Virus record (IMG/VR): IMGVR_UViG_3300044732_000574
Span: 1-39,779 of that record
Strand: one strand, 5' to 3'
Length of the DNA stretch: 39,779 bases
Source of the DNA: a virus
Within the stretch, counting starts at the first letter, position 1. Each line of letters starts with the position of its first letter. The position numbers and the translations under genes are program-made. Of this stretch, positions 12,977 through 38,315 are shown piece after piece. Below the pieces are notes generated by a model, which worked only from the letters and a program-made list of their open reading frames with translations, was not told where the DNA came from and did not search any database.

Positions 12977-13028
12977 GTCTAATACCGCATCTCTGCGGTT
13001 TCGTCCATTGAGGACTCGTCAGTTAGAC
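12977..13028 (-). ncRNA. type I hammerhead ribozyme 3
   Basis: Stem I GTCTAA/TTAGAC, core CTGACGA (C at the variable seventh position), stem II GTCC/GGAC, GAAA, stem III CCGCA/TGCGG with a GAGA loop, and a GUA cleavage triplet in place of the usual GUC. Cut between 12983 and 12982. The TAA stop of the 116-residue gene upstream is the UAA of stem I. Confidence 0.88.
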
Positions 13029-13442: not shown

Positions 13443-13502
13443 GTCTGAGACCACGACTCTCCCGAGTGGTGGTTTCGCCTATTGAAGGCTCTTCAGTCAG
13501 AC
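13443..13502 (-). ncRNA. type I hammerhead ribozyme 4
   Basis: Stem I GTCTGA/TCAGAC, core CTGAAGA, stem II GCCT/AGGC with loop TCAAT, GAAA, stem III CCACCACTC/GAGTCGTGG, GUC. Cut between 13449 and 13448. Unlike most copies it does not touch a stop codon: it lies about 45 bases after the RNA polymerase gene and just downstream of a phage promoter, so it would trim an 81-base leader from that promoter's RNA. Confidence 0.88.
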
Positions 13503-13547: not shown

Positions 13548-15932
13548 CTATGCGAATGCATAGTGAGACTTAGAGGTATTTCGTAGGTCTAGCGATCCTC
13601 GTTTGGGAGGAGGTAGAACCTTCGATCTCTTGTTCTCTGGCAATGCTGCAAGAACTCTGTTGTGCAAATCTTGGAGTGGGTCCCAGTTCTCATAAAGTTC
13701 CACGAATGTATCCTTTACGATAGCGGAGAATTGCTCCATGTCGGACGGTAGGCAACTGAACGAATCGTGAATCAATAGGAATTGGTGTATTCCAGATTCT
13801 TTCGCTGTCAGTGCTGCCATCTGCAAGTGAGTTGCATCACAACTGTGTACAAAGTTCGGAGACATAGATGTTCTTTGTTTACTTGGAACTAACTTATCCG
13901 TATAACCATAAACAAATCGATTGCGAATGCGTCTACCTTTTACAGTGACATTCAACTGAGTTTCCTTCACCTTATAGTAGGCATTGTAGACTGGGAACGA
14001 CAACGGTGTGAACCATGTGATAGGAAGATTCTCCTTCGCCATAATTCCTGCCAAATGCTGTAACCAATCCATAACTTCCATAGGTTTAGGAGCAATCTGT
14101 CTCAATACAGTGTCCAAGTGGTTTGCTAGATAGACTGCAGATTTAATTGGATTCTCGAATTTGTGCTTCTTCTCAGAAATCACATCCGACATCAATTGCT
14201 CTGCCCATCCAAACAATTCCATCTTGTTCGTACTGTTAGACTTTGTGACACCACCCTTACGGGAGCCATAGCAAATTGTCATAGTTGAACGTTTGGTCGT
14301 CTTTCGAGTGATACCAAAGTCCAACCATTCAGTTGCTAGTTTCTGCGTAGCCTCATCCGCATTCTTCAGATCATCCTTTAGAATTTCTATGAGGATTTCT
14401 GCGGCATCACGGTAAACGTCCTCTGGTTGTTCGCCAGGAATGAGGTTCACTCGTTTGCCTGTGGTATCATCTCGGAGCATAGCACTGAAGTGCTGTAATC
14501 CAGAGTTACTACCATCGATTGCAACTGGCAGATGACATATGTAAGAGGAACCTTGAAGTTGCCACTTACGATATTCAATGCATGCTGCTGCAAACAAGAA
14601 TGGCTCAGATGCACCATCTTTACCATCTTCCCCATAGAACCACTCAGGATCTGCAAATGGATCTGCACCGAACGCCATGATTCTGTCATGGTTATCGTCG
14701 ACCCACTTGACTCGATTCTCGAATGATGCTTTGGAAATCTTATCGAAGTCACCAGTGTTAGCTAGGTGAATCTTCAACCAATCTCCAGCTTCTTTAGTTT
14801 CAATGGACTTGCCATCTGCGAACATCCAAAGCGATTTCATCCAATCTGCTGCTTGATGATTTAGCGATGGGATCGCGTAGACTCGACCACGGAAATCCAA
14901 GAATGCTGGTAGGAACATGCGTTCCTCGTTGGTCATAGACCGAGCTTCAGTCAAATCTGACAGGAATGTTGCCTGTAACGACTTGTACTGATAGCCTTCT
15001 TTCTTGCTTAGTCCCTGTGGTAGGGAGCTCGGTGGAATCTTTCTGAACTTTCTCACATGCTCACCCTTGTCAGTTACCGAGAGATGATTAATCTCATAGG
15101 CACGTCTAATGATGTGAACTAGTTCAGTGTTGATCTTGAGTGGAACGCTTTGAATAGCATTCACAGCATCAACCCACCGAGCACCCAAGACAGCAGACTC
15201 GCGTACCACTGCTTTGTGATCACGGTTCCAAGTCTTCACCAATCGCACTTTAGATGCGACACGTTCATCGTAGTAACTACCTTCGAGAATCGACTTTGGT
15301 TCAGACAACATTGGAGAGAACACAGGTTTAGATATACGTTGATTGTCATAGATATCGTCCATGTGTTTCAGTGCACTATCAGTTAGTACTACTCTTGTGG
15401 CTTCATTGCTTATACCACCAGCGTTCTCAGATCTAATGATCACAAACGCAGGATCCGACATAGCGCATACAGTTTCAATCAGGTTCGAACCGAGCACTAA
15501 TGCTCTGCGTTTGAATTCGAGTTGATCTGTAGGTTTGTCTTCAATTTGATCATAGCACATAACTCCAATTTTACTTGCGAGTGCTGTGTATGAAGATTTA
15601 TCACTAGTCCCTCCTCGAGACTTGTGCTCACCTGTTGTGTTAGAACTTCCCTTGCCCATGTTGAATAGGACTTGGTATGCGAAGATAACGCAAGGTGCCG
15701 CACCAATCTTCTGTGCGTCTAACTGCCAATCCATCATAGGACGGTGTGGCTGGTTAGTTGTAATTACTTCTTCGAAGGCACTAATAGTGTCACCTGTCAG
15801 GTCCTTCATAAAACTAAATTCTGGTGCTGTCATTCGACCAGATGCTTGAGCAGATACAAACTTACGATCATATCTATCTACACCTTTATCGAACATGCCA
15901 GATTCATGGAACTTTTCTAAATGTTCGTTCAT
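13548..15932 (-). CDS. single-subunit DNA-dependent RNA polymerase (T7 RNAP family)
   Basis: 794 residues (T7: 883). Landmarks: DFRGRVYAIPS; motif A VAIDGSNSGLQHFSAMLRDD near residue 480; motif B RKTTKRSTMTICYGSRKGG near 575 (R, K, Y and G at T7 spacing); motif C LIHDSFSCLPSD near 720; C-terminus HYAFA, like the FAFA foot of T7 RNAP. Start at 15932 chosen because GAGG lies eight bases upstream; the frame stays open to 15956. It would transcribe from the 16-base elements described here. The mRNA leader starts at hammerhead 5's cleavage site. All catalytic residues are present. Confidence 0.97.
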   Translation of the reverse strand: MNEHLEKFHESGMFDKGVDRYDRKFVSAQASGRMTAPEFSFMKDLTGDTISAFEEVITTNQPHRPMMDWQLDAQKIGAAPCVIFAYQVLFNMGKGSSNTTGEHKSRGGTSDKSSYTALASKIGVMCYDQIEDKPTDQLEFKRRALVLGSNLIETVCAMSDPAFVIIRSENAGGISNEATRVVLTDSALKHMDDIYDNQRISKPVFSPMLSEPKSILEGSYYDERVASKVRLVKTWNRDHKAVVRESAVLGARWVDAVNAIQSVPLKINTELVHIIRRAYEINHLSVTDKGEHVRKFRKIPPSSLPQGLSKKEGYQYKSLQATFLSDLTEARSMTNEERMFLPAFLDFRGRVYAIPSLNHQAADWMKSLWMFADGKSIETKEAGDWLKIHLANTGDFDKISKASFENRVKWVDDNHDRIMAFGADPFADPEWFYGEDGKDGASEPFLFAAACIEYRKWQLQGSSYICHLPVAIDGSNSGLQHFSAMLRDDTTGKRVNLIPGEQPEDVYRDAAEILIEILKDDLKNADEATQKLATEWLDFGITRKTTKRSTMTICYGSRKGGVTKSNSTNKMELFGWAEQLMSDVISEKKHKFENPIKSAVYLANHLDTVLRQIAPKPMEVMDWLQHLAGIMAKENLPITWFTPLSFPVYNAYYKVKETQLNVTVKGRRIRNRFVYGYTDKLVPSKQRTSMSPNFVHSCDATHLQMAALTAKESGIHQFLLIHDSFSCLPSDMEQFSAIVKDTFVELYENWDPLQDLHNRVLAALPENKRSKVLPPPKRGSLDLRNTSKSHYAFA

Positions 15933-15962
15933 TTCTGTTCCTCGTATAAATAACACATCATT

Positions 15963-16044
15963 GTGTAAGACTCTGGGAGCCTCGCCTGCAGAGCGTGCGA
16001 GAATAAGCCCAAAGTTTCGTCCATTTAGGACTCATCAGTTACAC
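15963..16044 (-). ncRNA. type I hammerhead ribozyme 5 (long stem III)
   Basis: Stem I GTGTAA/TTACAC, CTGATGA, stem II GTCC/GGAC, GAAA. Stem III is long: CTTTGGG/CCCAGAG with a G-U wobble, enclosing CTCGC/GCGAG. Cleavage triplet GUC, cut between 15969 and 15968. The last ten codons of the upstream gene (ending VTDES) run through stem I, the core and stem II, and its TAA stop is in the stem II loop, so translation would unfold the ribozyme. Confidence 0.9.
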
Positions 16045-18326: not shown

Positions 18327-18376
18327 GTCTAAGACCTCTCCCGAGGTTTCGTCCAATTAGGACTCATCAGTTAGAC
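18327..18376 (-). ncRNA. type I hammerhead ribozyme 6 (minimal)
   Basis: A compact 50-base copy: stem I GTCTAA/TTAGAC, CTGATGA, stem II GTCC/GGAC, GAAA, stem III CCTC/GAGG with a GGGA tetraloop, GUC. Cut between 18333 and 18332. The upstream gene ends QSN-stop, where the stop TGA is part of the CTGATGA core itself. Followed by the TATGAAAGGAG leader shared with other copies. Confidence 0.92.
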
Positions 18377-19063: not shown

Positions 19064-19115
19064 GTCAAAGACTGCCTCGCGGCAGTTTCGTCTATAGAAG
19101 ACTCGTCAGTTTGAC
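19064..19115 (-). ncRNA. type I hammerhead ribozyme 7
   Basis: Stem I GTCAAA/TTTGAC, a base change compensated on both strands relative to the other copies; core CTGACGA; stem II GTCT/AGAC; GAAA; stem III CTGCC/GGCAG with GCGA loop; GUC. Cut between 19070 and 19069. The stop TGA of the 72-residue gene is inside the core. Confidence 0.92.
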
Positions 19116-21017: not shown

Positions 21018-21067
21018 GTGTAAGACGTCTCCCGACGTTTCGCCTATTGAAGGCTCTTCAGTTACAC
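21018..21067 (-). ncRNA. type I hammerhead ribozyme 8 (minimal)
   Basis: Stem I GTGTAA/TTACAC, core CTGAAGA, stem II GCCT/AGGC, GAAA, stem III CGTC/GACG with GGGA loop, GUC. Cut between 21024 and 21023. The TAA stop of the EcoRI-like gene is the end of the 5' strand of stem I. Confidence 0.92.
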
Positions 21068-21543: not shown

Positions 21544-21623
21544 GTATAAGACTCCTCACAAAGCATACTCGTATGCGAGCATACTGCGTGGAGTTTCGGA
21601 TATTAAATCCTCATCAGTTATAC
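21544..21623 (-). ncRNA. type I hammerhead ribozyme 9 (branched stem III)
   Basis: Stem I GTATAA/TTATAC (compensated change), CTGATGA, stem II GGAT/ATCC, GAAA, stem III CTCCAC/GTG-AG-GAG with a two-base bulge and an inner hairpin GCATAC/GTATGC, GUC. Cut between 21550 and 21549. The TAA stop of the 72-residue gene is the UAA of stem I. Confidence 0.88.
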
Positions 21624-22571: not shown

Positions 22572-22668
22572 GTCTAATACCCTATGCCTTCCTGTCACGG
22601 ATCGGTGCATAGTAATGCCATCTGGGGCATCCATAGGGTTTCGTCTATTGAAGACTCATCAGTTAGAC
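22572..22668 (-). ncRNA. type I hammerhead ribozyme 10 (largest)
   Basis: Stem I GTCTAA/TTAGAC, CTGATGA, stem II GTCT/AGAC, GAAA, stem III CCCTATG/CATAGGG closing a 40-base insert with at least one inner hairpin (ATGCC/GGCAT), and a GUA cleavage triplet. Cut between 22578 and 22577. The upstream gene ends QSN with its TGA stop in the core. The extended stem III may host a binding site or simply tolerate insertion. Confidence 0.88.
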
Positions 22669-23331: not shown

Positions 23332-23380
23332 ATCTAAGACTGGTTTCCCAGTTTCGTCGTTACCGACTCATCAGTTAGAT
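23332..23380 (-). ncRNA. type I hammerhead ribozyme 11 (minimal)
   Basis: Stem I ATCTAA/TTAGAT, CTGATGA, stem II GTCG/CGAC with loop GTAA, GAAA, stem III CTGG/CCAG with GAAA tetraloop, GUC. Cut between 23338 and 23337. It belongs to a second subfamily (GTCG stem II, ATCTAA stem I) with copies 12 and 14. It lies two bases after the stop of the 56-residue membrane protein. Confidence 0.92.
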
Positions 23381-24178: not shown

Positions 24179-24229
24179 ATCTAAGACTAGGTTTCCCTAG
24201 TTTCGTCGTTACCGACTCATCAGTTAGAT
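24179..24229 (-). ncRNA. type I hammerhead ribozyme 12
   Basis: Stem I ATCTAA/TTAGAT, CTGATGA, stem II GTCG/CGAC, GAAA, stem III CTAGG/CCTAG with GAAA loop (compensated against copy 11), GUC. Cut between 24185 and 24184. A small AAGCA/TGCTT hairpin precedes it at about 24249-24262, between the gene stop and the ribozyme. Confidence 0.92.
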
Positions 24230-24590: not shown

Positions 24591-24617
24591 ATAATACTCC
24601 TTATAATAAATAATAAA

Positions 24618-24667
24618 TCTGTTTCGTCGTTTCCGACTCATCAGTGTGGAACACATCCACATACAGA
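24618..24667 (-). ncRNA. type III hammerhead ribozyme 13
   Basis: The only copy with an open stem III. Order on the minus strand: stem III 5' strand TCTGT, GUA cleavage triplet, closed stem I TGTGGA/TCCACA with loop TGTGT, core CTGATGA, stem II GTCG/CGAC with GAAA loop, core GAAA, stem III 3' strand ACAGA. Cut between 24662 and 24661. Stem III has only 5 pairs including U16.1-A15.1, so activity may be weak. Core and stem II match the neighbouring type I copies, suggesting circular rearrangement from one of them. Confidence 0.75.
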
Positions 24668-24780
24668 GCACCTTGTTTGCGGCACAAGATGCAAAAGCCC
24701 TCGCTAGGATTGGATAAAGGGATCCAATAATAGAGAGTGTTCGATTCGCCATAAAGGCATGCTCTCGAACTCGCATTATA

Positions 24781-24850
24781 ATCTAAGACTACCATGCCAG
24801 TGTTTCTGGTCTTATTGATAGTTTCGTCGTTACCGACTCATCAGTTAGAT
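24781..24850 (-). ncRNA. type I hammerhead ribozyme 14
   Basis: Stem I ATCTAA/TTAGAT, CTGATGA, stem II GTCG/CGAC, GAAA, stem III CTATCA/TGGTAG (one U-G pair) with inner hairpin CCAG/CTGG, GUC. Cut between 24787 and 24786. Starts one base after the TAA of the Ala-Lys-rich gene. Together with copy 13 it bounds a 125-base RNA. Confidence 0.88.
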
Positions 24851-25394: not shown

Positions 25395-25416
25395 ATGTTT
25401 CTTTCATAAAGTTTAA

Positions 25417-25441
25417 ATAAAAAAAGTCCTTGTTAGGACTT
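25417..25441 (-). terminator. intrinsic terminator or attenuator, leftward
   Basis: On the minus strand AAGTCCT, loop AACA, AGGACTT followed by TTTTT: a perfect 7-bp stem plus U-tract. It lies only 23 bases upstream of the first leftward gene, so leftward RNA must read through it or start inside the short gap. This suggests attenuation of early transcription or insulation from the repeat region. Confidence 0.75.
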
Positions 25442-25930
25442 GGGTTGATTGTTCCAGTTGAATAGGACATTCACATAGTTCCAGTTCTTCTCTTGCGAGA
25501 ATCTTCAGTTGCTTTTCACACTAACTATGAGTAATCTTCTTCATTCAGTCTACTTTCGTAGCTAACAATGAATAGGTGGAAGTTTTACAGATCTTCCAAC
25601 TGGTTGAGTTCGATTTATTATTTATAGACTCCATCTGTTCAACTCTGGACTAGGTCTTTACTACAGCGAGATTATTTGGATCGCAAATCCATTTGTAAGA
25701 TTGAGGATTACAACTCCTTGATTCGCTAAAGGGAATCACTCTTTTGATTCGCTAACGAGAATCACTCGGATAGAAACGATTTCTCCATTTCTTTCTAAGG
25801 GGCTCTGAGCGATTCCTAAGCCCTCGTAATACCTCGTTTCTTGGTAAGCCCTCGACAGGAGAGGGAAATCACGTCGTAAAATGGGTCTCCAAAGCCTACT
25901 GCAAGAGCTTTTGTATCTTAGATAAAACAT
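25442..25930 (+). other. non-coding stretch upstream of leftward arm
   Basis: No credible gene; frames are short, lack ribosome-binding sites and have unusual composition. It has inverted segments (GGAAG/CTTCC near 25577-25596), two copies of GTTCCAGTT, and a direct repeat at 25720. Host promoters for the leftward early genes are expected here, but I could not point to a convincing -35/-10 pair. Confidence 0.5.
25720..25767 (+). repeat. two-copy direct repeat, 22 bp at 26-bp spacing
   Basis: GATTCGCTAA followed by two variable positions and GAATCACTC occurs at 25720-25741 and 25746-25767. The arms GATTC and GAATC are inverted, so each unit is also a hairpin-capable or protein-binding dyad. 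Confidence 0.75.
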
Positions 25931-25981
25931 CCGCAAACCTTAGAATCACCTCGGAAAATTACTAAACACCTCGTCCTCAGA

Positions 25982-26003
25982 GCGACCCTCGTCCTGCCTC
26001 GTG
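25982..26003 (+). repeat. boundary direct repeat, left copy
   Basis: GCGACCCTCGTCCTGCCTCG plus TG, 22 bases, is repeated exactly at 28914-28935, with a shorter third version at 28960-28978. The two copies enclose most of the repeat region and are GC-rich in an AT-rich setting, as recombination or packaging junctions might be. Confidence 0.8.
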
Positions 26004-26086
26004 GAGATAACGAATTAAACACTGTAGGAGCGAGTAGATGCGAGGAAAGGATTTTGCCTTATTACACAAACCTCGACAGGACTCGT

Positions 26087-26203
26087 GGAGATAACGCATG
26101 GAGATAACGCATGGAGATAACGCATGGAGATAACGAATGTAGATAACGCATGGAGATAACGCATGGAGATAACGCATGGAGATAACGAATGTAGATAACG
26201 AAT
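26087..26203 (+). repeat. 13-bp tandem array, 9 units
   Basis: Nine head-to-tail units of GGAGATAACGCAT, with GTAG and CGAAT variants in units 4, 5, 8 and 9 arranged in a repeating pattern (units 1-4 resemble 5-8). One isolated unit lies at 26002-26014. The arrangement suggests a higher-order duplication of a block of units. Iteron-like protein-binding sites are a reasonable reading. Confidence 0.9.
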
Positions 26204-26320
26204 AAATATCCTCTGGAAGCTTGCTTACGAGGCTAGGACTGTTGACGGTGGCCATCTATTCGAGTCCGATTGGAATTTATCGTGACGGTGGAACTTTCTC
26301 CAAATTGAGAATTTTATGCC

Positions 26321-28013
26321 GACTTACTCAAACACTAGGAGTGGGTCTGTGAGCATAAGCAGTACGTGCGTAAATTGAACATTTATCCTCAGATTACTCA
26401 GTGTCAGAGAGACAAATGAATATTTGATGCGAAGTTACTCAAACAGAGAGAATCGGTCTTCACCCCTAAGGAGCAGATGCTTAAATTGAGAACTTCAATC
26501 GGACTTTGTCAATATTTGGTGACAGCTTTCTGTGAAATTACTCAAACAGAGAGAATGGCTCTTAAAGCCTAAGCAGTGTGTGCTTAAATCGAGAACTTCA
26601 ATCAGACTTGCTCAATATTTGGTGACAACTTTCTGTAGACTTACTCAAACAGAGAGAATGGGTCTGTGTAGATAAGCAGTAGGTGCTTAAATCGAGAATT
26701 TATCCTCACATTACTCACCAAGTGAGCATTATATGTAGACTTACTCGAACAGTTAAAATGGGTCTGTGGAGATAAGCAGTTGGTGTGTAAATTGAGAATT
26801 TTGAATTCCGCACGAGCATTTTTATGTGACGGTGGCGATGTAAATTACTCAATATTCTAAAATTGGTCTGTAAGGCTCGCCAGTAGGTGCTTAAATCGAG
26901 AACTTCAATCAGATTTACTCGGTCTATTGTTGACGGTGGCTTCTAAACCTTAGAATACAAAAGGATTATTCTTTGGTACAAACCTTAGAATACAAAAGGA
27001 AATTTCTTACAGTCTGCCCCTATGCAAACCTTAGAATCTAAAAGGAAATCCTAAAACCATCCTAAACCTTTGAATCTAAAAGGAAATAAAACAGTCTGCC
27101 CCATCGCAAACCTTAGAATTCACTCAGGAAATTCCTATCTAGAGTTCCGTCTGCCCCATCCTAAACCTTAGAATCTAAAAGGAAATTTCTGTAAAATCTA
27201 CCATTTCTGGACAGTCTGCCCCTGTGCAAACCTTAGAATTACCTCGTGATTTCTCTAAGCACTGTAACGACCAACGTATCTGAAAGGCAACAAGCATATG
27301 CAAGCCTTTGAATCCGAAGACTAAATCACTCAGTCTGTAGGCTTGTGAAATTCCTAAGGAATAACGACAATTCACATTTCTGTGCCGACTTGCTCGAATA
27401 CTAGGAGTGGGTCTGTGTAGATAAGCAGTAGGTGCTTAAATTGAGAAATTTCCGATTCCGCACTGCCATTTTTATGTGACGGTGGCATTTGGACTTACTC
27501 GATACGTGGAAATTGCTTTGAAAGCCTCTTGAATAGGTGCTTAAATTGAGAACTTCAATCGGACTTTGTCAATATTTGGCTTTGGATTGTTGACGGTGGT
27601 TCTCTAAATTACTCAAAAATGTAAAATTGCTTTGAAAGCCTCTTGAATAGGTGCTTAAATTGAGAACTTAAATCAGACTTTGTCATATTTGGTGACAGCT
27701 TTCTGTGAAATTACTCAATATGGTAAAATGGGTCTGTCGCAATAAGCAGTAGGTCCTTAAATTGAGAACTTCAATCAGACTTTGTCAAATGCTAATCCAT
27801 TTATCGACAACTATTTGTAGACTTACTCAATATGTTAAAGTTGCTTTATCGCCCTCTTGAATAGGTGCTTAAATCGAGAACTTCAATCAGACTTTGTCAA
27901 TATTTGGTGACAGCTTTCTGTGAAATTACTCAATATGGTAAAATGGGTCCTAGACCCTCTTAAATAGGTGCTTAAATCGAGAACTTCAATCAGACTTTGT
28001 CAAATGCTAATCC
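26321..28013 (+). repeat. dispersed long repeat family, about 12 units of 100-115 bp
   Basis: Units begin near 26321, 26432, 26535, 26638, 26738, 26842, 27387, 27492, 27606, 27708, 27820 and 27923. Each has a TTACTCAA box, a variable AT segment, often GGGTCTGTG then ATAAGCAGT, the constant AGGTGCTTAAATTGAGAA, and commonly CTTCAATCAGACTTTGTCAA and GGTGACAGCTTTCTGTG. Unlike CRISPR, the conserved part is most of the unit. Coding is absent on both strands. The block is split by a second repeat family at 26.9-27.25 kb. Confidence 0.9.
26945..27240 (+). repeat. AAACCTTAGAAT repeat family
   Basis: Seven copies of AAACCTTAGAAT (one with TTTGAAT) start at 26945, 26980, 27026, 27064, 27108, 27163 and 27228, usually followed by CTAAAAGGAAAT, so that TTAG-AAT-CTAA makes a small dyad. 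GTCTGCCCC recurs between them four times. One further copy sits at 25935, outside the block. Confidence 0.88.
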
Positions 28014-28019
28014 ATTTCA

Positions 28020-28040
28020 TCTGACGCCTCAGTTACGGGG
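28020..28040 (+). promoter_or_regulatory. candidate phage RNA polymerase promoter, rightward 1
   Basis: TCTGACGCCTCAGTTA followed by CGGGG at the end of the repeat block, same 16 bases as the two leftward elements but on the plus strand. Predicted start at the first G. It faces the terminase and late genes. Confidence 0.72.
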
Positions 28041-28091
28041 AAGTAATGAATCTTACCCTCTTCCAGCGAGGAAAGGAAACCTTAAATTTCC

Positions 28092-28112
28092 TCTGACGCC
28101 TCAGTTATGGAA
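28092..28112 (+). promoter_or_regulatory. candidate phage RNA polymerase promoter, rightward 2
   Basis: TCTGACGCCTCAGTTA followed by TGGAAAGG, 72 bp downstream of the first. Both are followed by the AT-rich tract; tandem phage promoters followed by AT-rich DNA is the architecture of the T7 primary replication origin. Confidence 0.72.
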
Positions 28113-28199
28113 AGGAAAATGCCATTTATGGCTTTATTACCATCCCATAGTCTGACGGTAGAACCTTTATGTGTTCATCTATGACTCTGCAACCCTCTA

Positions 28200-28760
28200 T
28201 CTGTGAGTGCCTAATTCCTTAGTTTCCCTATTAGCATTAGTCTCCTCACTACTTACTTTGAATAAGCTTACCCTCATGTCTCCGCCCAAGCATGAATGTG
28301 TATTGCTGTATGCAACTTATTCCCTGTAAGCTCCTTATTTGGTGCTCATCCTCCTGGTGAGTATCCTTAGGGCGATCAATCCCTTACTCATTTAATTAGG
28401 TTTAATCCTTAGTTATTATCTTGTTGTGTCGATAAATAAAGGCATTAAGCCTAAGGATCTTATGAGTCCCTAACACTAAGCTGCTTAGGTCCCTAAAGTT
28501 ATCATTAAGATTATAATTAGGATTAATAGCTTGTGAGCTTAATCTTAGCCTAACCTGCAGACCTTCTCAAGACCATTCTTTAGGTTACTAGCGCATCTTA
28601 TTAAGATTATCATTAGGTTATTCTTTAGTTAATTACTTTAGTTAATTCCTTAGGATTATCACTTTAGTTTTAATTCCTAAGGAATAAGCATAATGCTAAT
28701 TCTAATTCGAATTACTAAGGTTAATCCTTAAGATGGGCATGTGCATAGCGAGCTGCTGCC
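28200..28760 (+). other. AT-rich tract, TTAG/CTAA-rich, putative origin region
   Basis: No gene. The stretch is dense in the words TTAG, CTAA, CCTAAGG and ATTAAG, giving many overlapping short inverted repeats, for example ATTCCTAAGGAAT near 28670. It lies downstream of the two rightward promoters, where transcription could open the duplex. An origin role is inferred from the T7 comparison only. Confidence 0.5.
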
Positions 28761-28813
28761 TCGTTCGTGAATTGGGATTACTAACATCCTTACGAGTGCT
28801 GCTTAGGTCCGCA

Positions 28814-28836
28814 GGATTGGTTGGGGGGTGGGTCGG
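28814..28836 (+). other. G-rich tract with quadruplex potential
   Basis: Four G-runs (GG, GG, GGGGGG, GGG) in about 20 bases on the plus strand, the only such run seen in this AT-rich hub, followed by a GGAAAAATCGG segment and, at 28896-28911, a perfect CTGGAG/CTCCAG hairpin. Could pause polymerase or mark an end; function unproven. Confidence 0.5.
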
Positions 28837-28913
28837 AAAAATCGGCTCACTGCCCCGTGCCGCACCTGGGCATTTTTAAGCAACCTCTAACGTTCCTGGA
28901 GACCCCTCCAGAG

Positions 28914-28935
28914 GCGACCCTCGTCCTGCCTCGTG
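28914..28935 (+). repeat. boundary direct repeat, right copy
   Basis: Exact second copy of the 22-base element at 25982. The immediate flanks differ, so the identity is confined to the element, which argues for conserved function or recent transfer and not a larger duplication. Confidence 0.8.
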
Positions 28936-29146
28936 AGCAAACCAAATAGTTGCCCTGCAGCCCTCGTCCTGCCTCGTTCCCCTCAGGGAGCGTTTTTCTA
29001 AATGCGTTTTTCATCGTGACGGTGAAATTCATTTAAATTCATTTGAATTAGTTTTAATTCTGAATTATTCTTTAAGTTAATCGCGCGAGTGCTCCTGCGC
29101 ACGTGAGAATTTAAACAATACTTTAACCCAATACAGAGAGATGATT

Positions 29147-29602: not shown

Positions 29603-29899
29603 ATGTCAAAAACAGCTAATCCCTTCTATAATTCTACGATTTGGAAGCAACTCAGACTCAAAATACTGGCTAGAGATGGTTATACTTGCGTAAGATGCAA
29701 GCTGACCCTCGCCAGTAAAGATCTGCAGGTTGATCATATAGTACCCATGTCAACCCACCCACAGTTCGCACTTGAACCAGGAAACTTACAGACCCTATGT
29801 CGACGGTGCCATACTCGCGCACCCACATCTATGGGTAGAAACTCAGACTATCGTGAGAGACCCTTTGTCGGTCTAGATGGTCTTCCAGAAGGATGGTAA
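29603..29899 (+). CDS. HNH endonuclease of the packaging cluster
   Basis: 98 residues, a complete small HNH protein: FYNSTIWKQLRLKILARDGY, a CVRC zinc pair, LQVDHIVPMS with the catalytic DH, and TLCRRCHTRA closing the zinc site. HNH proteins next to terminase genes take part in specific genome cleavage during packaging in HK97-like systems, so it is probably functional in packaging and not a homing element. Six bases after the small subunit gene, six before the large one. Confidence 0.9.
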   Translation: MSKTANPFYNSTIWKQLRLKILARDGYTCVRCKLTLASKDLQVDHIVPMSTHPQFALEPGNLQTLCRRCHTRAPTSMGRNSDYRERPFVGLDGLPEGW

Positions 29900-29905
29900 A
29901 TATAA

Positions 29906-31531
29906 ATGATTCTCACCAAAGATTGGCAAGAGTTCCCAGAACATTGTAAATCTGCTGTCAGATGTGGTTGGATTCCACTTGACAGAGACTATGATAAGAT
30001 TAAACCCAAGGATTGGACACGTGCTGAACGAGTAATGGCGTTCATTGAGAAGGAGTGTAAGGTCCCAGAGGGTTCCCAAGTCGGTAAACCTGTGATTTTA
30101 TCACCATTCCAAAGAATGTTCATCAGAGCAGTTTACGACAATCCCAATACAGCAACACGTCGCGCAATTTTATCTATCGCCAGAAAAAATGGCAAGACAG
30201 GTTTGATTGCTCCACTAGTGTTAGCACACATTATAGGTCCAGAGGCTAGGAAGAACTCCCAGACAGTCTCTGGTGCTATGAACAGACAGCAAGCTGGCAT
30301 CGTCTTTGACGCCATGGCTAAAATGATTAATTTGAACACCAACATGACAGCTAGAGCTGCTGTGGTCCCGTCGCAGAAATCAATTAAAGGGATCACCACA
30401 GGTGTTACATATAGAGCATTGGCTAAAGATGGCGCAGGAGCCCAAGGATTATCACCAGCAGTCGCAGTTTTGGACGAAGCTGGTCAGATTGTAGGTCCTA
30501 CAGACGCATTCTTTGATGCGATCACGACCTCCCAAGGTGCTCACGACAACCCTCTACTTTTAGTGATCTCCACTCAAGCAGCTTCTGACAGTGATCTCCT
30601 GAGCATCTGGATTGATGACGCTCAGAGGTCCAATGATCCATCCACGGTGTGCCACGTTTACGAGGCAGACAAGGATAGCGATCTGATGGACGAGAATCAA
30701 TGGTACAAGTCTAATCCCGCTTTGGGAGTATTCCGTAACATTGAAGACTTGAGGACACAGTTGAGTCGTGCTGCCCGAATGCCTACTGCCGAACCATCAG
30801 CAAGAAACCTCTTGTTAAATCAAAGAGTATCACTTCTGACTCTGGCAGTTGCACCTTCGGTGTGGAAACTTAACGGAGCGGAGCCAAACGACGAGTTATT
30901 CTACAGTTATCCCGTTCACTGCGGTCTCGACCTATCTGCTAGGAATGACTTGACAGCCTGTGTGTTGTCAGTTTTAGATCCTGAGACAGGTCTGGTTCAC
31001 ACCAAGCCTATTGTATTCACACCTTTGGATAACATTGAGGATAGAGCTAGACAAGATAGAGCACCATATGATACATGGGCAAAGTCTGGTCACATGATAG
31101 CTCTACCAGGTAGACATCTAGACTACGGTATGATAGCCGAAGAACTAGCTAAACAAACAAAAGGAATGACTATAGCCAGTGTGCAGTTTGACAGGTGGCG
31201 TATAGATGATTTCAAACCTCGCGCAGATGAGTTTGGATTTGCCGCAGAAAGTGAATGGATCCCAGTAGGTCAAGGCTTCAAGGATTTCTCACTTCGTGTC
31301 GATGGACTTGACAGTCTGTTGCTACAAGGTAAGATCAGACACGGTATGCATCCCCTATTGAACTTAGGTGCTGCTAACGCTGTGGTCGTCACTGACCCAT
31401 CTGGTTCCAAGAAATACGATAAATCCAAATCCTCCCAACGTATAGACACACTAGTTGCTCTTGCAATGTCTGTGTATCCTTTATCTGACGGTGTGTTTGA
31501 TGAGATTAATATAGATTCAATGATAGTTTAG
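29906..31531 (+). CDS. terL: terminase large subunit (HK97-like)
   Basis: 541 residues. ATPase domain: ILSIARKNGKTGLIAPLVLA (Walker A variant) near residue 90, VAVLDEAGQ (Walker B with catalytic Glu) near 187, VISTQAASDSDLL near 213 (coupling motif). RNase H-like nuclease domain: HCGLDLSARNDLTACV near 342 and later acidic residues (FDRWRIDDF). It pumps and cuts DNA during packaging. The motif set resembles phage terminases of the HK97 type more than T7 gp19, a mosaic feature. Start lacks a strong ribosome-binding site. Confidence 0.92.
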   Translation: MILTKDWQEFPEHCKSAVRCGWIPLDRDYDKIKPKDWTRAERVMAFIEKECKVPEGSQVGKPVILSPFQRMFIRAVYDNPNTATRRAILSIARKNGKTGLIAPLVLAHIIGPEARKNSQTVSGAMNRQQAGIVFDAMAKMINLNTNMTARAAVVPSQKSIKGITTGVTYRALAKDGAGAQGLSPAVAVLDEAGQIVGPTDAFFDAITTSQGAHDNPLLLVISTQAASDSDLLSIWIDDAQRSNDPSTVCHVYEADKDSDLMDENQWYKSNPALGVFRNIEDLRTQLSRAARMPTAEPSARNLLLNQRVSLLTLAVAPSVWKLNGAEPNDELFYSYPVHCGLDLSARNDLTACVLSVLDPETGLVHTKPIVFTPLDNIEDRARQDRAPYDTWAKSGHMIALPGRHLDYGMIAEELAKQTKGMTIASVQFDRWRIDDFKPRADEFGFAAESEWIPVGQGFKDFSLRVDGLDSLLLQGKIRHGMHPLLNLGAANAVVVTDPSGSKKYDKSKSSQRIDTLVALAMSVYPLSDGVFDEINIDSMIV

Positions 31532-31541
31532 AGGAGTTTCT

Positions 31542-33428
31542 ATGAATAAATTAAAGAGTATCCTCGATACTATCGTTGAAAAATACACTGTTGGTCAACT
31601 TAGAGACCGAACTGGAAAGTTTGCCGAGACAGGTGCTGGTAACGGTGGTGGAGGTGGCTCAGGTGGTAAAGGTGGAGGTGGTGGTGGTGGAGGTGGTGTA
31701 GACTACCCATATCAAACCACTGCCACGGTGAAACGCATGACAGTTGATCAGTTTGGTAAGGATGCTGGAAAGAGCACTCACAACAAACAAGCAAGACAAA
31801 TAGTTATCGGTGCTATCAACGGTTCAAGTGGTGGCGGTTCTTCCCTTTCCTCTGTTTATGCCAGTGTCTCTCATGCTACAGGAATCCCTCAGAGCAGAGC
31901 ACTCGCAGATGCCGTAAATTCTCATCTAAAAAACATGGATAGAGATGGTCAAATTAAAGTCAATCGCGAAACAACGATCATGCGACACGGCTCTGACGCT
32001 GGTGTCAAGGTTGGCAAGGTAAAGTGGGAACGCAATGCTGATGGCGACTGGCAGGTTTCTCAGATGGAAACATTTAGAATCAGTGTCATTGATAAAAAGT
32101 TGGCAGCTACAGGCTCCAACATTAAGTCTCCTCACACACTAGGTCCTAGAGCCGCACGTTTCGATCCAAAAGTTGGTGGTCAAGCTGACGAAGCTCTAGC
32201 ATTTAGACGTAAAGAATACTCTGACACTAGGCTTGCTCCTCAAGGTCGCTATCACAGTTCAGACAGAAGTGCGCCAGAAATGATGTATGGTGACACACGA
32301 GCTGAGCTCCTTGAAAAGGGAAAGATTACTCCCAAAGAAGCTGCTGGAAAAGTTGGAGAGCCAGTAGGTGGTGATAAAAATGGAGTTGGTGGTAAGTATA
32401 TTCGTAAAGAAGCATTTACCGATCGTAAGATAGACTTCTATGACGCAACCTCTTCAGTTACTGCGCACATTGGTGTGATGACTGGTGATAGAAAGTCTCT
32501 TGAGATGTCTAAGTTACTTCCTTCTAAAGGTCTTCCTGCACATCATACACTGGCTACTAAAAGACTCGGTGTTTCTGAAAGTAAGAGTGGAAGTCCATAC
32601 TTTAGTGTGTTGTCTGGGTCTAAAGGATCTTTAACGGATGCCGATTTCAAAGGTTTCGACGAAAAGAAAGCCAGCATCAAAGAAATTGCTAAATCTATTT
32701 GGACACCTGGCTCCTACGGCTCTGCTCCAAATATGGCTGGCTATTCTAGCATGGGTGTGAAAGTTACTGAAGGTCTTGTAAAAGGTGGAATGAAACCAGA
32801 ACTAGCCAAACAGACTGCACAGAAGATGTTAAACAATTTTAAAGAAACCTCACTAGCAAAGTTTTCTAAAGGTTTCACGAAGATTATCGGAGAGGCTCCA
32901 GAGAATTTTGTGTATGAGAACCCAATGTCTGGGTATCGGATGTCTTTTAACAAGCACAACACCGAGAAAGTTTATTTAACTCTTGGAACTAATAGAAGAT
33001 CCAGTGGATCGTCCTCTTCTCAAAACGAGGCAGTAAAGTTACGTGCGGATGTGCCAACTACAACGAACTCTAGAAAGACACGATCAGGTGCTGCGGCTCT
33101 GTTTGTTCAAAACTGGGATTCTGCAGTTATGTCTGATTTGATGCTGAAGCAGAGATCACCATATACCGTTCACGATGCTATAGGTGTCAAGAAGAGTATG
33201 GTTGGAAGATTGAATGCCAACGTCGCAAAGTCCATGATGACAGCTCAGAAGTATAAACCTCTAGAAGACTTGTCGAATCAAATTATGAAGCAACACGAAA
33301 AGAATGGTGCAAGTCCTACATTCCTAGCAAAAACTAGAAAGGATTTAGACTTGGCAATCCAACAGATTAGAAAGTCAGATGAGCAGTTCACATTCTCAGC
33401 TCAGAATAATCATTTCGCACTAGAATAA
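31542..33428 (+). CDS. second single-subunit RNA polymerase-like protein with Gly-rich and winged-helix N-terminus
   Basis: 628 residues. N-terminus: RDRTGKFAETG (21-31), a long polyglycine linker (31-52), and a winged-helix-like segment (about 84-145). The C-terminal half has T7-RNAP motifs at near-T7 spacing: DTR then QGRYHSSDR (228-242; DxRGR-like), motif A YDATSSVTAH (D301, H309), motif B KEIAKSIWTPGSYGS (K380, K384, Y392, G393, matching RxxxKxxxxxxxYG), FVQNWDSAV (521), motif C VHDAIGV (H544, D545). D301 to Y392 is 91 residues and Y392 to D545 is 153 (102 and 173 in T7). Position is where a portal gene is expected. It may be a virion-carried or late polymerase, or a degenerate relative. 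GAGGAG precedes the ATG. Confidence 0.6.
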   Translation: MNKLKSILDTIVEKYTVGQLRDRTGKFAETGAGNGGGGGSGGKGGGGGGGGGVDYPYQTTATVKRMTVDQFGKDAGKSTHNKQARQIVIGAINGSSGGGSSLSSVYASVSHATGIPQSRALADAVNSHLKNMDRDGQIKVNRETTIMRHGSDAGVKVGKVKWERNADGDWQVSQMETFRISVIDKKLAATGSNIKSPHTLGPRAARFDPKVGGQADEALAFRRKEYSDTRLAPQGRYHSSDRSAPEMMYGDTRAELLEKGKITPKEAAGKVGEPVGGDKNGVGGKYIRKEAFTDRKIDFYDATSSVTAHIGVMTGDRKSLEMSKLLPSKGLPAHHTLATKRLGVSESKSGSPYFSVLSGSKGSLTDADFKGFDEKKASIKEIAKSIWTPGSYGSAPNMAGYSSMGVKVTEGLVKGGMKPELAKQTAQKMLNNFKETSLAKFSKGFTKIIGEAPENFVYENPMSGYRMSFNKHNTEKVYLTLGTNRRSSGSSSSQNEAVKLRADVPTTTNSRKTRSGAAALFVQNWDSAVMSDLMLKQRSPYTVHDAIGVKKSMVGRLNANVAKSMMTAQKYKPLEDLSNQIMKQHEKNGASPTFLAKTRKDLDLAIQQIRKSDEQFTFSAQNNHFALE

Positions 33429-33437
33429 GGAATTAAC

Positions 33438-35099
33438 ATGAATGTTCAATCATACTCTACATTGGAGTTCAATTTAAAGGATGCTGCTGATTCAATCATT
33501 GAAGAAGCCACAGCCAACGAACAGATGTCAAATGCTGGGTATGATCTTGGAGATGAACAGATTGCTGTGTTTGAGATCCGACAACTGGATGACGAGACTT
33601 ATTATTTTAAAGAGTCTTTGTATGATGGTGACATTGTATATGTAGATGACGACACTGAAGGCGAGTATGACTACTTCACAATGGTGGAGTATATTACAGC
33701 TCGCTTACAGATTTTAGATCAAGTTACCGATTATCCACGCATGCCAGAGTCTAAGAAATCTGCTATTGAGAAAGCTTTGGCTCTCGTCGGTATAGAGAAG
33801 TACAGAGCATCTCAACGTAGAGATCGATCTGGCAAGTTCGGCGAAGAAGGTCTTGGTGGTCCTGGTGCTGGTGGCGGTCGAGGACGAGGTGGTGCTTCTG
33901 GAGGAACTCCAACTGGCACTCTCAGAGTTTCTGGATCTGGTCTGACGGTGGGACCATCTGGAAGAAGTTCTAGATATATCCGCACAGGTGCTGGCGCTAA
34001 ACCTGCGACTGCTGCTAAGCCTACTGCTGCCAAACCTTCTTCTAAGCCTGCTGCTAGCACTAAACCTACAAAACCATCTTCAACTTCAGGTGTCGGTGCT
34101 GCTTTCTCGAGAGATAAGGACAGTCAAAGAGACATTAAGATAGATGATAGTAAACTCAGAGCTGCTGGTGGTAAGAACAGAGATGCGGATAGAAAAACAG
34201 TTTTGGATGTATACGCAGCGAGAGTTAAGAATTTTGATCCATCCTACACCATAGGTGCCGACGGTGGCGCTGTCTATGGTAAGGGTCCAAAAATACTTGC
34301 AGCAAAACCTGCTGGTTGGCCAGCCAACACTCCTTACAATCCTCGTAAGATGACAAATAAAGAAGGTGACTGGAAAACGCAATATCCAGCAACCTTCTCA
34401 AAGAAAGACACGTTGGATTGGATGAACCAAGGCGACGAAGGTGCTCGTAAAGCCCAAGTTGCTATTGCGGAAATCTACGAATTTGCTCGGAGAAGGCAAG
34501 GAAACGGACTTAATAATTCGGATTACAGCATCAAAGAGAATTCTCTAGGAACTACTCCTAAGAGTGTGAACAGATTCCTCGAGAAGGCAAAACTTGCTGG
34601 GTTTGATGTCGATATCCATCACATGATTCCTGCGTCTATGGGAGGTTCCAATCTAGGTCCCAATCTTGTGGCTCTAACACCAAAAGAGCATGCTATGGTT
34701 CACTCGTTAGAGTGGTCTGCTGCTAGGGTCTATAAGAAAGATGGTTCAGTAGCAAAACAAGGTAAATGGGGTGGCACACAGGCGACATTTGAAGCTACAG
34801 GTGCGAACATTAAGGCTAACAACATTTATCGTGCTGTTACACAACAAACAACTGCTGCAACACGTTCTGGTAATGTTAAAGCGTATTATAAAACTCTAAA
34901 TAGCACACCATCTCGTAAACAAGCAGCATTTGCCGCACAAAAAGCTGCTAATGAACTGTACAGGATGAAATTACTTCCAACTAACAAGTTAGAAGACTTA
35001 AAGCTGGACAAGGAAGGGAAACCTCTCTGGTCTAATGCCAAATCTAAGAATGAGTTAATCACAAAACTTGAGAATAATATAGTGAAAGAGACTACATAA
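33438..35099 (+). CDS. modular protein with C-terminal HNH nuclease domain
   Basis: 553 residues. Residues 1-120 form an acidic, helical domain; 127-140 carry RRDRSGKFGEEGLG, the same tag as in the preceding protein; 140-220 are Gly-, Ala-, Pro- and Lys-rich linker with AKP/SKP repeats; 230-380 is a mixed domain; 392-425 has the HNH signature DIHHMIPASMGGSNLG, NLVALTPKEHAMVH; then a basic helical tail. This layout (tag, linker, toxin-like nuclease) resembles polymorphic-toxin or injected virion nucleases. It could cut host DNA at entry or act in packaging. Confidence 0.75.
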   Translation: MNVQSYSTLEFNLKDAADSIIEEATANEQMSNAGYDLGDEQIAVFEIRQLDDETYYFKESLYDGDIVYVDDDTEGEYDYFTMVEYITARLQILDQVTDYPRMPESKKSAIEKALALVGIEKYRASQRRDRSGKFGEEGLGGPGAGGGRGRGGASGGTPTGTLRVSGSGLTVGPSGRSSRYIRTGAGAKPATAAKPTAAKPSSKPAASTKPTKPSSTSGVGAAFSRDKDSQRDIKIDDSKLRAAGGKNRDADRKTVLDVYAARVKNFDPSYTIGADGGAVYGKGPKILAAKPAGWPANTPYNPRKMTNKEGDWKTQYPATFSKKDTLDWMNQGDEGARKAQVAIAEIYEFARRRQGNGLNNSDYSIKENSLGTTPKSVNRFLEKAKLAGFDVDIHHMIPASMGGSNLGPNLVALTPKEHAMVHSLEWSAARVYKKDGSVAKQGKWGGTQATFEATGANIKANNIYRAVTQQTTAATRSGNVKAYYKTLNSTPSRKQAAFAAQKAANELYRMKLLPTNKLEDLKLDKEGKPLWSNAKSKNELITKLENNIVKETT

Positions 35100-35313: not shown

Positions 35314-36768
35314 GTGGCAGTATTTGAAATTTTAGCTGAGAAATCAGCAAACGACCAACGAACATTCTTTTACGATAACATGACAAACGTGTTGACTGAC
35401 GAGACTGGCGTTTTGTATGCGTTTCCAGATAAACGTGCAGACAATTCTGAACCTGCCACGATATTCAGCAAAGAGATCCCATTGAAGAAGTCCAAAGAAA
35501 TTGGATTTCTAAAGATTCAGTTAGGTCTCGGTTGTAATTACTCTTGTGATTACTGCTCTCAAAAGTTTGTTGAGCGAGCTGATTCCACATCTCCAAAGGA
35601 TATCGCTGACTTCATGGCAAAGTTGGACAAGTTAGATATCAATGAGGCAAAGGGTCTGAAGGTAGAATTCTGGGGTGGCGAACCACTCGTCTACTGGAAG
35701 ACTCTGAAACCACTCGCCGAAGCAATTCGCGAGAAGTACAAACACTGGGAGCGAAAACCAGCGTTCGCTATGATCACCAACGGTTCCATCCTCACAGATG
35801 ACATGATCGATTGGCTCATGATGATGGACTTTGCAGTTTCTATCTCACATGATGGTCCTGGTCAAGCTGTTCGTGGTCCAGACCCATTCGACGATCCTGA
35901 GACAAAGAAACGTTTACTCGGTTTCTATCGTATGATGACTCGTCTAAACAAGAATATTAGTTTCAACTCTATGTTGTCTGCTAAGAATAAGAGTCGCAAA
36001 GAAATCTCAGACTGGTTCCGAGAGTTGACAGGCGATCCTAACATCTCGCTAGGCGAAGGTGGTATTGTAGATGCTTACGACGAAGATGGTATTACTAACT
36101 CTCTGATCACTAAACAAGATCACTTTGAGTTTCGTCGTTTAGCTTTCTCGGATATCTTCACTACCGACGGTGACATTGCTTTCAAGATGCAGTTGAATAA
36201 GATCAACAGCTTTACTACTGATGTATTGGCTCAGAAGCATGCGTCAACTCTTCCACAGAAATGTGGTATGGATCAAGACGATGTTCTTGCTGTCGATCTT
36301 CACGGTAATGTGATCACCTGTCAGAACGTCTCTGCTGTAGAGACATCCAAGAACGGTGAATCTCACCTAGCTGGAACATTAGACGCATACGATGATGTGT
36401 CGATCACTACATCAGCACATTGGTCTACTCGTGAAGAGTGTCCTAAGTGCCCAGTGCTCCATCTCTGTAAAGGTGCGTGTATGTTCTTGGACAATAAGTT
36501 CTGGAAGATCTCGTGCGCCAACGCTTACTCAGATAACGTAGCACTATTCGCATTGTCATTTGTAAAGATGACTGGATACATTCCTATCCACATTAAAAAT
36601 GATGACTTACCTTTGGAACGTCAAGATGTATTTGGTACGTTGTTTGAGCACAAAGAAGAGTCCGTTCGTAAAGTTATCCCTATTAAAATTGTGAATCATA
36701 TCACAGAAGTAGTTGATAACGTTCCTATCTACTCTAAATCGGAGGTCGCCTATGACAATCCAATCTAG
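35314..36768 (+). CDS. radical SAM/SPASM maturase
   Basis: 484 residues, GTG start after AGGAG. The radical SAM cluster motif is GCNYSCDYC (C74, C78, C81), with GLKVEFWGGEPL (the GGE that positions SAM) near 105 and AMITNGSIL near 145. The C-terminal SPASM region has CGMDQDDVLAVD, HGNVITCQN and CPKCPVLHLCKGAC for two auxiliary iron-sulfur clusters, as in anSME and peptide-modifying maturases. Substrate is likely a peptide or protein; the Cys-rich protein translated in overlap with it (17 bases) is the prime candidate. Confidence 0.92.
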   Translation: MAVFEILAEKSANDQRTFFYDNMTNVLTDETGVLYAFPDKRADNSEPATIFSKEIPLKKSKEIGFLKIQLGLGCNYSCDYCSQKFVERADSTSPKDIADFMAKLDKLDINEAKGLKVEFWGGEPLVYWKTLKPLAEAIREKYKHWERKPAFAMITNGSILTDDMIDWLMMMDFAVSISHDGPGQAVRGPDPFDDPETKKRLLGFYRMMTRLNKNISFNSMLSAKNKSRKEISDWFRELTGDPNISLGEGGIVDAYDEDGITNSLITKQDHFEFRRLAFSDIFTTDGDIAFKMQLNKINSFTTDVLAQKHASTLPQKCGMDQDDVLAVDLHGNVITCQNVSAVETSKNGESHLAGTLDAYDDVSITTSAHWSTREECPKCPVLHLCKGACMFLDNKFWKISCANAYSDNVALFALSFVKMTGYIPIHIKNDDLPLERQDVFGTLFEHKEESVRKVIPIKIVNHITEVVDNVPIYSKSEVAYDNPI

Positions 36769-37651
36769 TGGGCCAATTGCTTTCAGTAATGTCAGCACCG
36801 AAATAGGACAGGCTCCGACTTATACAACATCACTTAGCTTCTTGAACAGCCAGGTTAAGCCTGCTGTTCGACCAGCTATTCCAAATATGTCAGTGTTTTA
36901 TGGCATGAGTTATTTCCAAAACACAACTGAAGGTAACTGCGCAAACGGCAACTGTACTGCAGACTGTAACTGCGGTAATATTCAATGTACCAACTGCGTT
37001 ATTACTGGTGGCGTCGATTGTGTAAACTGTGACCCACAACCGTACTTACAACTAGGTTCTAACTGCGCTTGTACCTACAACTGTACATCAGGTGAAACAT
37101 CATACAATTGTAACTGCGCATGTAACTGCTCTAAGATTATCTGCTCTAAACTCTACGACATCGGTGCGATGGCTCCTGCAATCTTTGCAGCAGACCAAGC
37201 CTACGGTAAGTGGTTGTTCAAGAACGACAAGGTAGTCTATCGTGGCTACATCCGTTGGGCACGCATTGTTACTGCTTGGATGGACGGCAAAGGTCCAGAC
37301 TTTATGTTCTGGATTCGGGACAAAGAGAAACGTGTAGAAGCTCAGAAAGAACTGACTCGCAAGATGGCTACCAAGATGGGTATTCCATGGGCAGAGCATA
37401 TGGCTTTCAAGATGGGCGCATTACGTGAAGACAATCTCCACGGTAAAGTTCTCATGTCGATCGGTGTTCCTATCTGTAGATTCCTAGACAAGTTACCTCG
37501 CGTACGTGAGCGTGATCGTCGCCACCGTTTGCCAGTTCTCTTGGCAATGTGGGCAGCATTCTACGGTAGCCATTGGACTGCGTCTGCTGTTGTCCGTGCC
37601 AATAACGTTGTAAGTAAAGTTTCTACCATGCTAAAGAGAGCGGTGGTATAA
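36752..37651 (+). CDS. Cys-rich Asn-Cys-repeat protein, putative virion protein and radical SAM substrate
   Basis: 299 residues, start fixed by GGAGG. Residues 1-55 (SGPIAFSNVSTEIGQ, then MSVFYGMSYF) match a domain I recall at the N-terminus of phage structural proteins. Residues 60-131 contain 16 Cys, ten of them in Asn-Cys pairs. Residues 134-299 are a helical basic domain (LYDIGAMAPAIFAADQAYGK, RGYIRWARIVTAWMDG) also known from marine phage structural proteins. The gene lies inside the 3' end of the maturase gene and is followed by oxygenases, so the Cys/Asn segment is probably modified (thioether formation, Asn hydroxylation) on a tail or head decoration. Confidence 0.7.
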   Translation: MTIQSSGPIAFSNVSTEIGQAPTYTTSLSFLNSQVKPAVRPAIPNMSVFYGMSYFQNTTEGNCANGNCTADCNCGNIQCTNCVITGGVDCVNCDPQPYLQLGSNCACTYNCTSGETSYNCNCACNCSKIICSKLYDIGAMAPAIFAADQAYGKWLFKNDKVVYRGYIRWARIVTAWMDGKGPDFMFWIRDKEKRVEAQKELTRKMATKMGIPWAEHMAFKMGALREDNLHGKVLMSIGVPICRFLDKLPRVRERDRRHRLPVLLAMWAAFYGSHWTASAVVRANNVVSKVSTMLKRAVV

Positions 37652-37652
37652 C

Positions 37653-38315
37653 ATGGAACGATCTAACTGGTGGTTGAGCCCAGTTTGGGAGTACCAGTCT
37701 CCATTCGATGCCGAGTTCAATAAAGCACTTCTGCAAGAGGTGTACGAGATTGGACAAGGCATTTCTAAGCATGGTACATACGGTAAATTAAGTTTATGGG
37801 ACTACGACAAACCACACCTAAACACTTTAAAAGAATATATCCTTGCTAAGTGCTATCAAGCAGTCTGTGGAGACATCTCTGAAGTGAATGAGCTTAATCT
37901 CAAAATGGATTTTGCAGGCGGTTGGATTAATGTCAAAGGTCCTGGCGAAGGTATCGAAGCTCACGCTCATAACGACTGTTCATTAACCGCAACTTATTAT
38001 GTACAAGCTGAAGAGACAAGTGGCGACATAGTGTTTATGTTACAGGGAGATCAGATCAACTCTGATGGCTCTTTTATCAACAATGACTATTCAACTTTAC
38101 CACATAAGCATATAACTCCAGTTGCTGGTAAGTTGGTAATATTTCCTGCATATATTATACACGAAGTTCAGAGTAATCGTTCAGATTCCCTTCGCATCTC
38201 TATTTCAACGGATTTACATCAAATAGTTGATAAAGATGCACCCAACGCTATGATTATCAAAAGCTGGTGTGATAGCATGCTAAGACTAAAAAATGTTTGT
38301 GAACCGAAAGGATAA
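37653..38315 (+). CDS. 2OG-Fe(II) oxygenase A
   Basis: 220 residues. Beta-helix core with EAHAHNDCSLTATYYV (H106-x-D108), a glycine turn, then KLVIFPAYIIHEVQ (H170) and RSDSLRISISTD (R181 or R176 for 2-oxoglutarate). The pattern matches the putative 2OG oxygenases of phage structural clusters. Starts one base after the Cys-rich gene's stop, so the two are made together. Probable protein hydroxylase; substrate inferred to be the Cys/Asn-rich segment. Confidence 0.83.
   Translation: MERSNWWLSPVWEYQSPFDAEFNKALLQEVYEIGQGISKHGTYGKLSLWDYDKPHLNTLKEYILAKCYQAVCGDISEVNELNLKMDFAGGWINVKGPGEGIEAHAHNDCSLTATYYVQAEETSGDIVFMLQGDQINSDGSFINNDYSTLPHKHITPVAGKLVIFPAYIIHEVQSNRSDSLRISISTDLHQIVDKDAPNAMIIKSWCDSMLRLKNVCEPKG

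Follow-up and report, generated by a model that had tools for sequence, protein, structure and literature searches.

A probable second, divergent single-subunit RNA polymerase encoded beside the terminase gene of a mosaic phage genome

The virion RNA polymerase (RNAP) of phage N4 is carried in the particle and transcribes the early genes (PMC4496689). This protein, gp50, is a divergent single-subunit RNAP of 3,500 amino acids with large N- and C-terminal domains; it is encoded with structural genes, in a phage that possesses a further RNAP. N4 RNAPII, composed of gp15 and gp16, is a minimal T7-type RNAP, a two-subunit enzyme of the middle genes that is neither late nor packaged. Multidomain (polyvalent) proteins that are injected with the genome occur commonly among phages that use portal-terminase packaging (PMC5512222). 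There is already one precedent for a T7-like phage with two T7-like RNAPs: Vibrio phage Peru-2 encodes its second such enzyme, P2_30, between its metabolism and structural modules, and this protein is not named among the virion proteins identified by mass spectrometry (PMC13320782).

The locus described here lies in a window of 39,779 nucleotides, which is the whole stretch of viral DNA analyzed (IMG/VR record IMGVR_UViG_3300044732_000574). As had been claimed, the terminase gene is followed by an ORF for a 628-residue protein, P0001, at 31542-33428 of the plus strand; it starts with ATG, has no internal stops, and is preceded by a good ribosome-binding site, AGAGGAG. On the late strand, P0001 is flanked by the large terminase subunit TerL (29906-31531, plus strand), which is HK97-like (52% to the HK97-group TerL, with Pfam TerL domains), and by an HNH-nuclease protein of 553 residues (33438-35099, plus strand; phrog_655, E 1.1e-8 here and 7.5e-13 in the related contig L001), at spacings of 10 and 9 nt, respectively. 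A radical SAM protein and modification-type genes follow, and in the homologous contig G001 a prohead protease, the major capsid protein, and the portal are found further along the strand of P0001. P0001 is a gene of the late operon. The phage's own T7-like RNAP of 802 residues is encoded separately on the replication arm (13548-15956, minus strand; PF00940, E 2.4e-86; phrog_414, E 8.7e-160), which bears out the earlier distinction between the two genes. The presence of a T7-like RNAP on the replication arm and of HK97-like TerL and head genes indicates that the window combines two arms of different types, a T7-like one for replication and an HK97-like one for packaging, so that the designation "T7-like phage" holds for the former but not for the packaging and head module. 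Like Peru-2, this phage has a second T7-like RNAP near the structural module and a standard one as well; this likeness is drawn from the description of Peru-2, and Peru-2 differs in the gene position and in its T7-type head and packaging.

P0001 is a remote member of the T7-type RNAP superfamily. A profile made of ten T7-like RNAPs matched its residues 501-593 (33042-33320, plus strand), a region homologous to the C-terminal part of these enzymes, with an E value of 6.1e-7, and the same region of its two full homologues, in contigs L001 and L002, with 1.7e-6 and 4.9e-6. As controls, 2000 shuffles and unrelated real ORFs were used; none of the shuffles reached the score of P0001, nor did any unrelated member of the real-ORF set (n = 667, including some RNAPs used in the profile and copies of P0001). 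For comparison, the same profile gave 25.2 bits for P0001 and 1.1 bits for the N4 mini-vRNAP, whose membership is proven and whose structure has been solved. The RNA polymerase family phrog_414 matched residues 502-614 of P0001 (E 8.8e-7) and gave no match in L001 or L002, while the Pfam RNAP model gave no match in P0001 and a weak one, at the right place, in L001 (E 0.048). Significant profile similarity is confined to residues ~500-614 of P0001, and the core is only ~16-20% identical to T7-like RNAPs. The profile of the gp16 family (N4 RNAPII) produced non-significant E values of 0.08-10, with motifs A and C aligning in register.

These data bear on the possibility that P0001 is not a polymerase but a head-associated or effector protein that resembles RNAPs in its motifs by chance. 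Such an explanation would agree with the silence of Pfam for P0001, the non-significant N4 RNAPII profile, and an uninformative structural model of the family, but it is very unlikely given a T7-type profile match of E ~1e-6 over ~93 residues in three homologues, by a profile that gives the N4 vRNAP 1.1 bits, an independently significant motif A, and a motif C that is in register in all alignments. Membership in the T7-type superfamily is supported by the profile and by motifs A and C, and it is highly probable from the sequence that P0001 is a divergent second single-subunit RNAP. Like the T7-like RNAPs (PF00940, phrog_414), it has a C-terminal region that includes motif C and a motif A placed in the same order, and its catalytic blocks are spaced as theirs are; it differs in having no recognizable T7-type N-terminal, promoter-binding domain, in carrying a tag and a glycine linker instead, and in its degenerate DxxGR block. 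No significant match to the N4 mini-vRNAP was found with hhalign, which, together with the profile scores of 25 bits for P0001 and 1.1 for the mini-vRNAP, places P0001 nearer the T7-like RNAPs than the N4 vRNAP. Judged by its unlike size and this missing sequence match, P0001 is not a giant vRNAP of the N4 type; what it has in common with gp50 is a high divergence, a position among late genes for packaging and structure, and a further RNAP in the same phage.

An AlphaFold model based on three family members alone was uninformative (pLDDT 38, pTM 0.27), and a fold search with it returned no matches. When five rows of T7-like RNAPs were added to the alignment, a second model was obtained with a pLDDT of 52 and a pTM of 0.55; all of its 31 best PDB matches were single-subunit RNAPs, although this model is biased by its alignment. 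In VIA-align, this biased model gave Z scores of at most 13.8 with the mitochondrial and T7 RNAPs, 10.6 with N4 RNAPII, and 6.6 with DNA polymerase I. Because RNAPs were present in the alignment, the second model is only consistent with a polymerase fold and is not independent proof of it.

The preliminary description had recognized three polymerase motifs in order. The strings DATSSVTAH, KEIAKSIWTPGSYGS, and VHDAIGV are present, and their order and spacing were reproduced in 4 of 200,000 core shuffles, for a pattern chosen after the fact; motifs A and C proved significant, whereas motif B is contested. Motif A (D301-H309, with the catalytic Asp D301; 32442-32468, plus strand) is the best match in P0001 of a scoring matrix derived from known RNAPs, at a score attained by 6 of 2000 shuffles and by no real decoy (n = 541). 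It was placed in register by hhalign over residues 285-330 (P 0.003), and it aligns as DATSS...TGDR with N4 RNAPII, to whose motif A it is strikingly similar. Motif C (VHDAIG, with the catalytic Asp D545; 33168-33185, plus strand) lies within the significant HMM match, and its H544-D545 pair was in register in all 48 alignment settings; motif A was usually so.

Motif B as originally read (KEIAKSIWTPGSYGS, residues 380-394, with K380, K384, and Y392; 32679-32723, plus strand) follows the pattern [RK]x3Kx3Tx3YGS, the same form as in N4 gp50 (RGIAKNPLTITIYGS), and this pattern occurs at 9.5e-5 per shuffle. Its register was matched by most MAFFT settings, but it does not rise above chance with the T7/N4-RNAPII scoring matrix. 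A rival register, obtained with hhalign and with the global settings of MAFFT, lies 30 residues upstream at residues 346-366 (ESKSGSPYFSVLSGSKGSLTD; 32577-32639, plus strand) and is devoid of the catalytic Lys and Tyr. Its A-to-B spacing of 53 falls outside the observed 57-124, whereas for the original reading the A-K (83) and Y-C (153) spacings are within the observed ranges and the Y-P spacing (69) is just below 73-91. We favor residues 380-394 over 346-366, with the activity of P0001 remaining a prediction; catalytic competence would depend on which of the two registers holds. The DxRGR-like block of the preliminary description corresponds to a strongly conserved stretch (residues 217-250; 32190-32291, plus strand), but one that is degenerate: it reads A-P-Q-G-R at 232-236, with the Asp missing, versus T-x2-G-R in the N4 vRNAP, and stays at chance level with the scoring matrix.

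P0001 might then be a polymerase-derived head or ejection protein in which catalysis was lost and the fold serves DNA binding or structure. The rival motif B register, the missing Asp of the DxxGR block, and the replacement of the conserved Gly and Gln of motif A could all be read in this way. However, although the alleles differ at one position in three, D301, K380, K384, Y392, G393, H544, and D545 never vary, and conservation is highest at the catalytic blocks, with an invariance of 85-90% at the DxxGR-type (85%), motif A, pre-C, and motif C blocks versus 66% overall. Since motif B as originally read also fits the A-B spacing better, we regard a loss of catalysis as quite unlikely and an active enzyme as the reasonably probable case.

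Relatives of P0001 in IMG/VR comprise two full homologues (L001 and L002, 66-68% identity) and a partial one (L039). The order TerL, RNAP-like gene, and HNH protein is kept in the L001 and L002 contigs; in L039 the contig ends within the RNAP-like gene, next to which lies the HNH protein. A tblastn search of P0001 against 50,697 phage records gave no match at E<=1, and protein and alignment scans of viral contigs detected no homologues beyond L001 and L002, nor did one scan of genome contigs detect any. Most matches of a pattern scan with motif C were family-A DNA polymerases, the others being the same lineage and the partial copy L039; a scan with motif B retrieved the same lineage and two chance matches only. 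The profile of the P0001 family (A1) revealed nothing new in related replication-arm contigs, which are fragments.

Between the window and L001, TerL is 99.6% identical, versus 66-70% for P0001 and the HNH protein. In the codon analysis, dS amounted to 0.02 for TerL, 1.42 for P0001, 1.15 for the HNH protein, and 0.39 for the radical SAM gene, and the dN/dS of 0.20 for P0001 shows that it is under purifying selection. A hypervariable island under diversifying selection is ruled out for P0001 by its high dS (1.4 versus 0.02 for TerL) and its dN/dS of 0.2; these values point instead to a long-standing pair of alleles within a mosaic genome. HNH98, TerL, and a gene for 220 amino acids (window 29603-31531 and 37653-38315) have a dS of 0.01-0.05 relative to L001 and L002, versus 0.3-1.4 for their neighbors, which suggests very recent exchange, and a small HNH nuclease adjoins TerL in the exchanged stretch. 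Marker exclusion by the HNH protein against rival RNAP-like alleles was considered only as an analogy, with the PhiPA3 intron endonuclease (PMC11620839), and set aside.

Several other features of the window were recorded. On the replication arm, fourteen hammerhead-ribozyme cores (CTGANGA...CGAAAC) were identified by the core pattern, every one of them on the minus strand and most within or next to intergenic gaps, at 24821-24844, 24621-24644, 24200-24223, 23351-23374, 22638-22662, 21593-21617, 21037-21061, 19085-19109, 18346-18370, 16014-16038, 13472-13496, 12998-13022, 5989-6012, and 2031-2055. A stricter pattern gave 12 matches versus 0.4 expected, and Rfam Hammerhead_3 and Hammerhead_1 scored 47.8 bits at 24616-24669 and 36.2 bits at 18327-18376, respectively. 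Cores were also present in the relatives L138-L142, and the late arm yielded none. In line with a proposal made for prophages that carry several hammerheads (PMC3088659), RNA transcribed from the T7-like arm may cleave itself at gene borders, and this array is possibly of more interest than the RNAP-like gene. The divergent arms are separated by 3.7 kb with few ORFs (25395-29140), a possible origin or promoter region. This gap contains a ~103-nt repeat in roughly nine or more diverged copies (26.3-28.0 kb), a tandem array of the 13-nt GGAGATAACGCAT (26055-26216), and CAAACCTTAGAATC in nine copies (25934-27314). In L141 (IMGVR_UViG_3300043444_000184) a ~900-bp intron-like insert at ~2925-3825, with its own ORF that is GIY-YIG-like by eye, splits the replication-arm RNAP (50% identical) exactly inside motif A. 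An amino acid:DNA transferase-like protein (PF18724, E 2.9e-7) and two genes that by eye resemble those for a thymidylate-synthase-type enzyme and a nucleotide kinase (2061-3338, 6018-7070, and 7054-7650) make it probable that thymidine in the phage DNA is hypermodified. The stretch 35314-37651, with the radical SAM protein, a protein rich in N-C repeats (NCANGNCTADCNCGNIQCTNC...), and several proteins that are oxygenase-like by eye, might be a peptide-modification cassette. The gene at 661-1941 has a weak match to myo-inositol-1-phosphate synthase (PF01658, E 1.4e-8) and belongs to phrog_33138 (E 1e-108), of unknown function. In contig L011, a phage protein of 937 amino acids (1541-4354, reverse-complement strand) carries SGADFDGDQVVVIPTN, the signature of the double-psi beta-barrel in RNAPs of the multisubunit or YonO-like type.

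Upstream of its core, P0001 carries an N-terminal tag at residues 10-34 (TIVEKYTVGQLRDRTGKFAETGAGN; 31569-31643, plus strand) and a polyglycine linker at residues 34-53 (31641-31700, plus strand), the latter conserved and longer in L001 and L002. Both had been noted in the preliminary description, together with a winged helix; this last element, residues 54-185 (31701-32096, plus strand), is H15-like by eye only, and its reading as a winged helix or linker histone was dropped, as neither Pfam nor PHROGs supports it even at E<=10, where the PHROGs match is at chance level. The tag recurs in one other protein, the adjacent HNH protein, at residues 120-141 (EKYRASQRRDRSGKFGEEGLGG; 33795-33860, plus strand): in the window, G001, and G002, the form Y...RDRxGKFxExGxGG with a glycine-rich stretch is exclusive to these two proteins. 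Their family profiles (A1 for P0001, A2 for the HNH protein) cross-match at the tag with E values of 1e-5 to 1e-9, partly inflated by glycine composition. This shared tag suggests a common address, and both proteins would most likely be incorporated into the head. With their common leader, the two nucleic-acid enzymes side by side in the packaging operon look like cargo.

In this respect P0001 resembles the polyvalent, genome-injected proteins, in which late-encoded enzymatic domains, nucleases and polymerases included, stand behind a presumed packaging segment (PMC5512222), but it differs from them in that no MuF, portal, or other recognized packaging domain was found in it. Because of this, and because searches for relatives of the tag in known phages and virion proteins yielded chance-level matches only (E>=2), packaging is something we infer, from the late operon and the tag shared with the HNH protein, and we rate it as evenly balanced. 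P0001 could instead be an active second RNAP that is produced late, stays out of the virion, and works within the infected cell, for example on late genes or on primers for replication. The profile, matrix, and hhalign evidence for a polymerase serves that explanation equally well, and the second RNAP of Peru-2 is not named among its virion proteins (PMC13320782); nevertheless, a joint role in assembly is suggested by the location next to TerL and by the tag that P0001 and the HNH protein share, and a standard T7-like RNAP is already encoded by the phage, so that we hold an exclusively intracellular enzyme to be unlikely.

We tentatively prefer an explanation in which P0001 would be a divergent T7-superfamily RNAP reduced to a palm and fingers core (~residues 190-628), to which the polyglycine linker attaches an N-terminal address tag. 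The protein would be produced late, from the packaging operon, incorporated into the head together with the HNH nuclease during assembly, and enter the cell alongside the DNA. On the incoming DNA it would make RNA, either as early transcription, before or alongside the host RNAP and ahead of the phage's T7-like RNAP, or as primer RNA. Taken as a whole, this tagged, head-packaged, and co-entering RNAP core has somewhat less than an even chance of being correct. That P0001 is at once a second RNAP, active, packaged, and endowed with an early role is slightly more doubtful still. These likelihoods, like those for its identity, activity, and packaging taken singly, are judgments. In its most specific form, the proposal is that a phage with packaging of the HK97 type and an ordinary T7-like RNAP also carries in its virion a miniature RNAP with a ~440-residue core, packaged together with an HNH nuclease by way of the N-terminal tag common to both; in this form it is rather unlikely.

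Even if it is not packaged, P0001 represents a very divergent branch of T7-type RNAPs that is absent from the phage records searched. If packaged and active, it would provide a far smaller "bring your own polymerase" route than the N4 enzyme of 3,500 residues, and one outside the N4 group. The address tag shared with a nuclease would then look transferable, and phages with modified DNA and a T7-like RNAP could begin transcription independently of the host.
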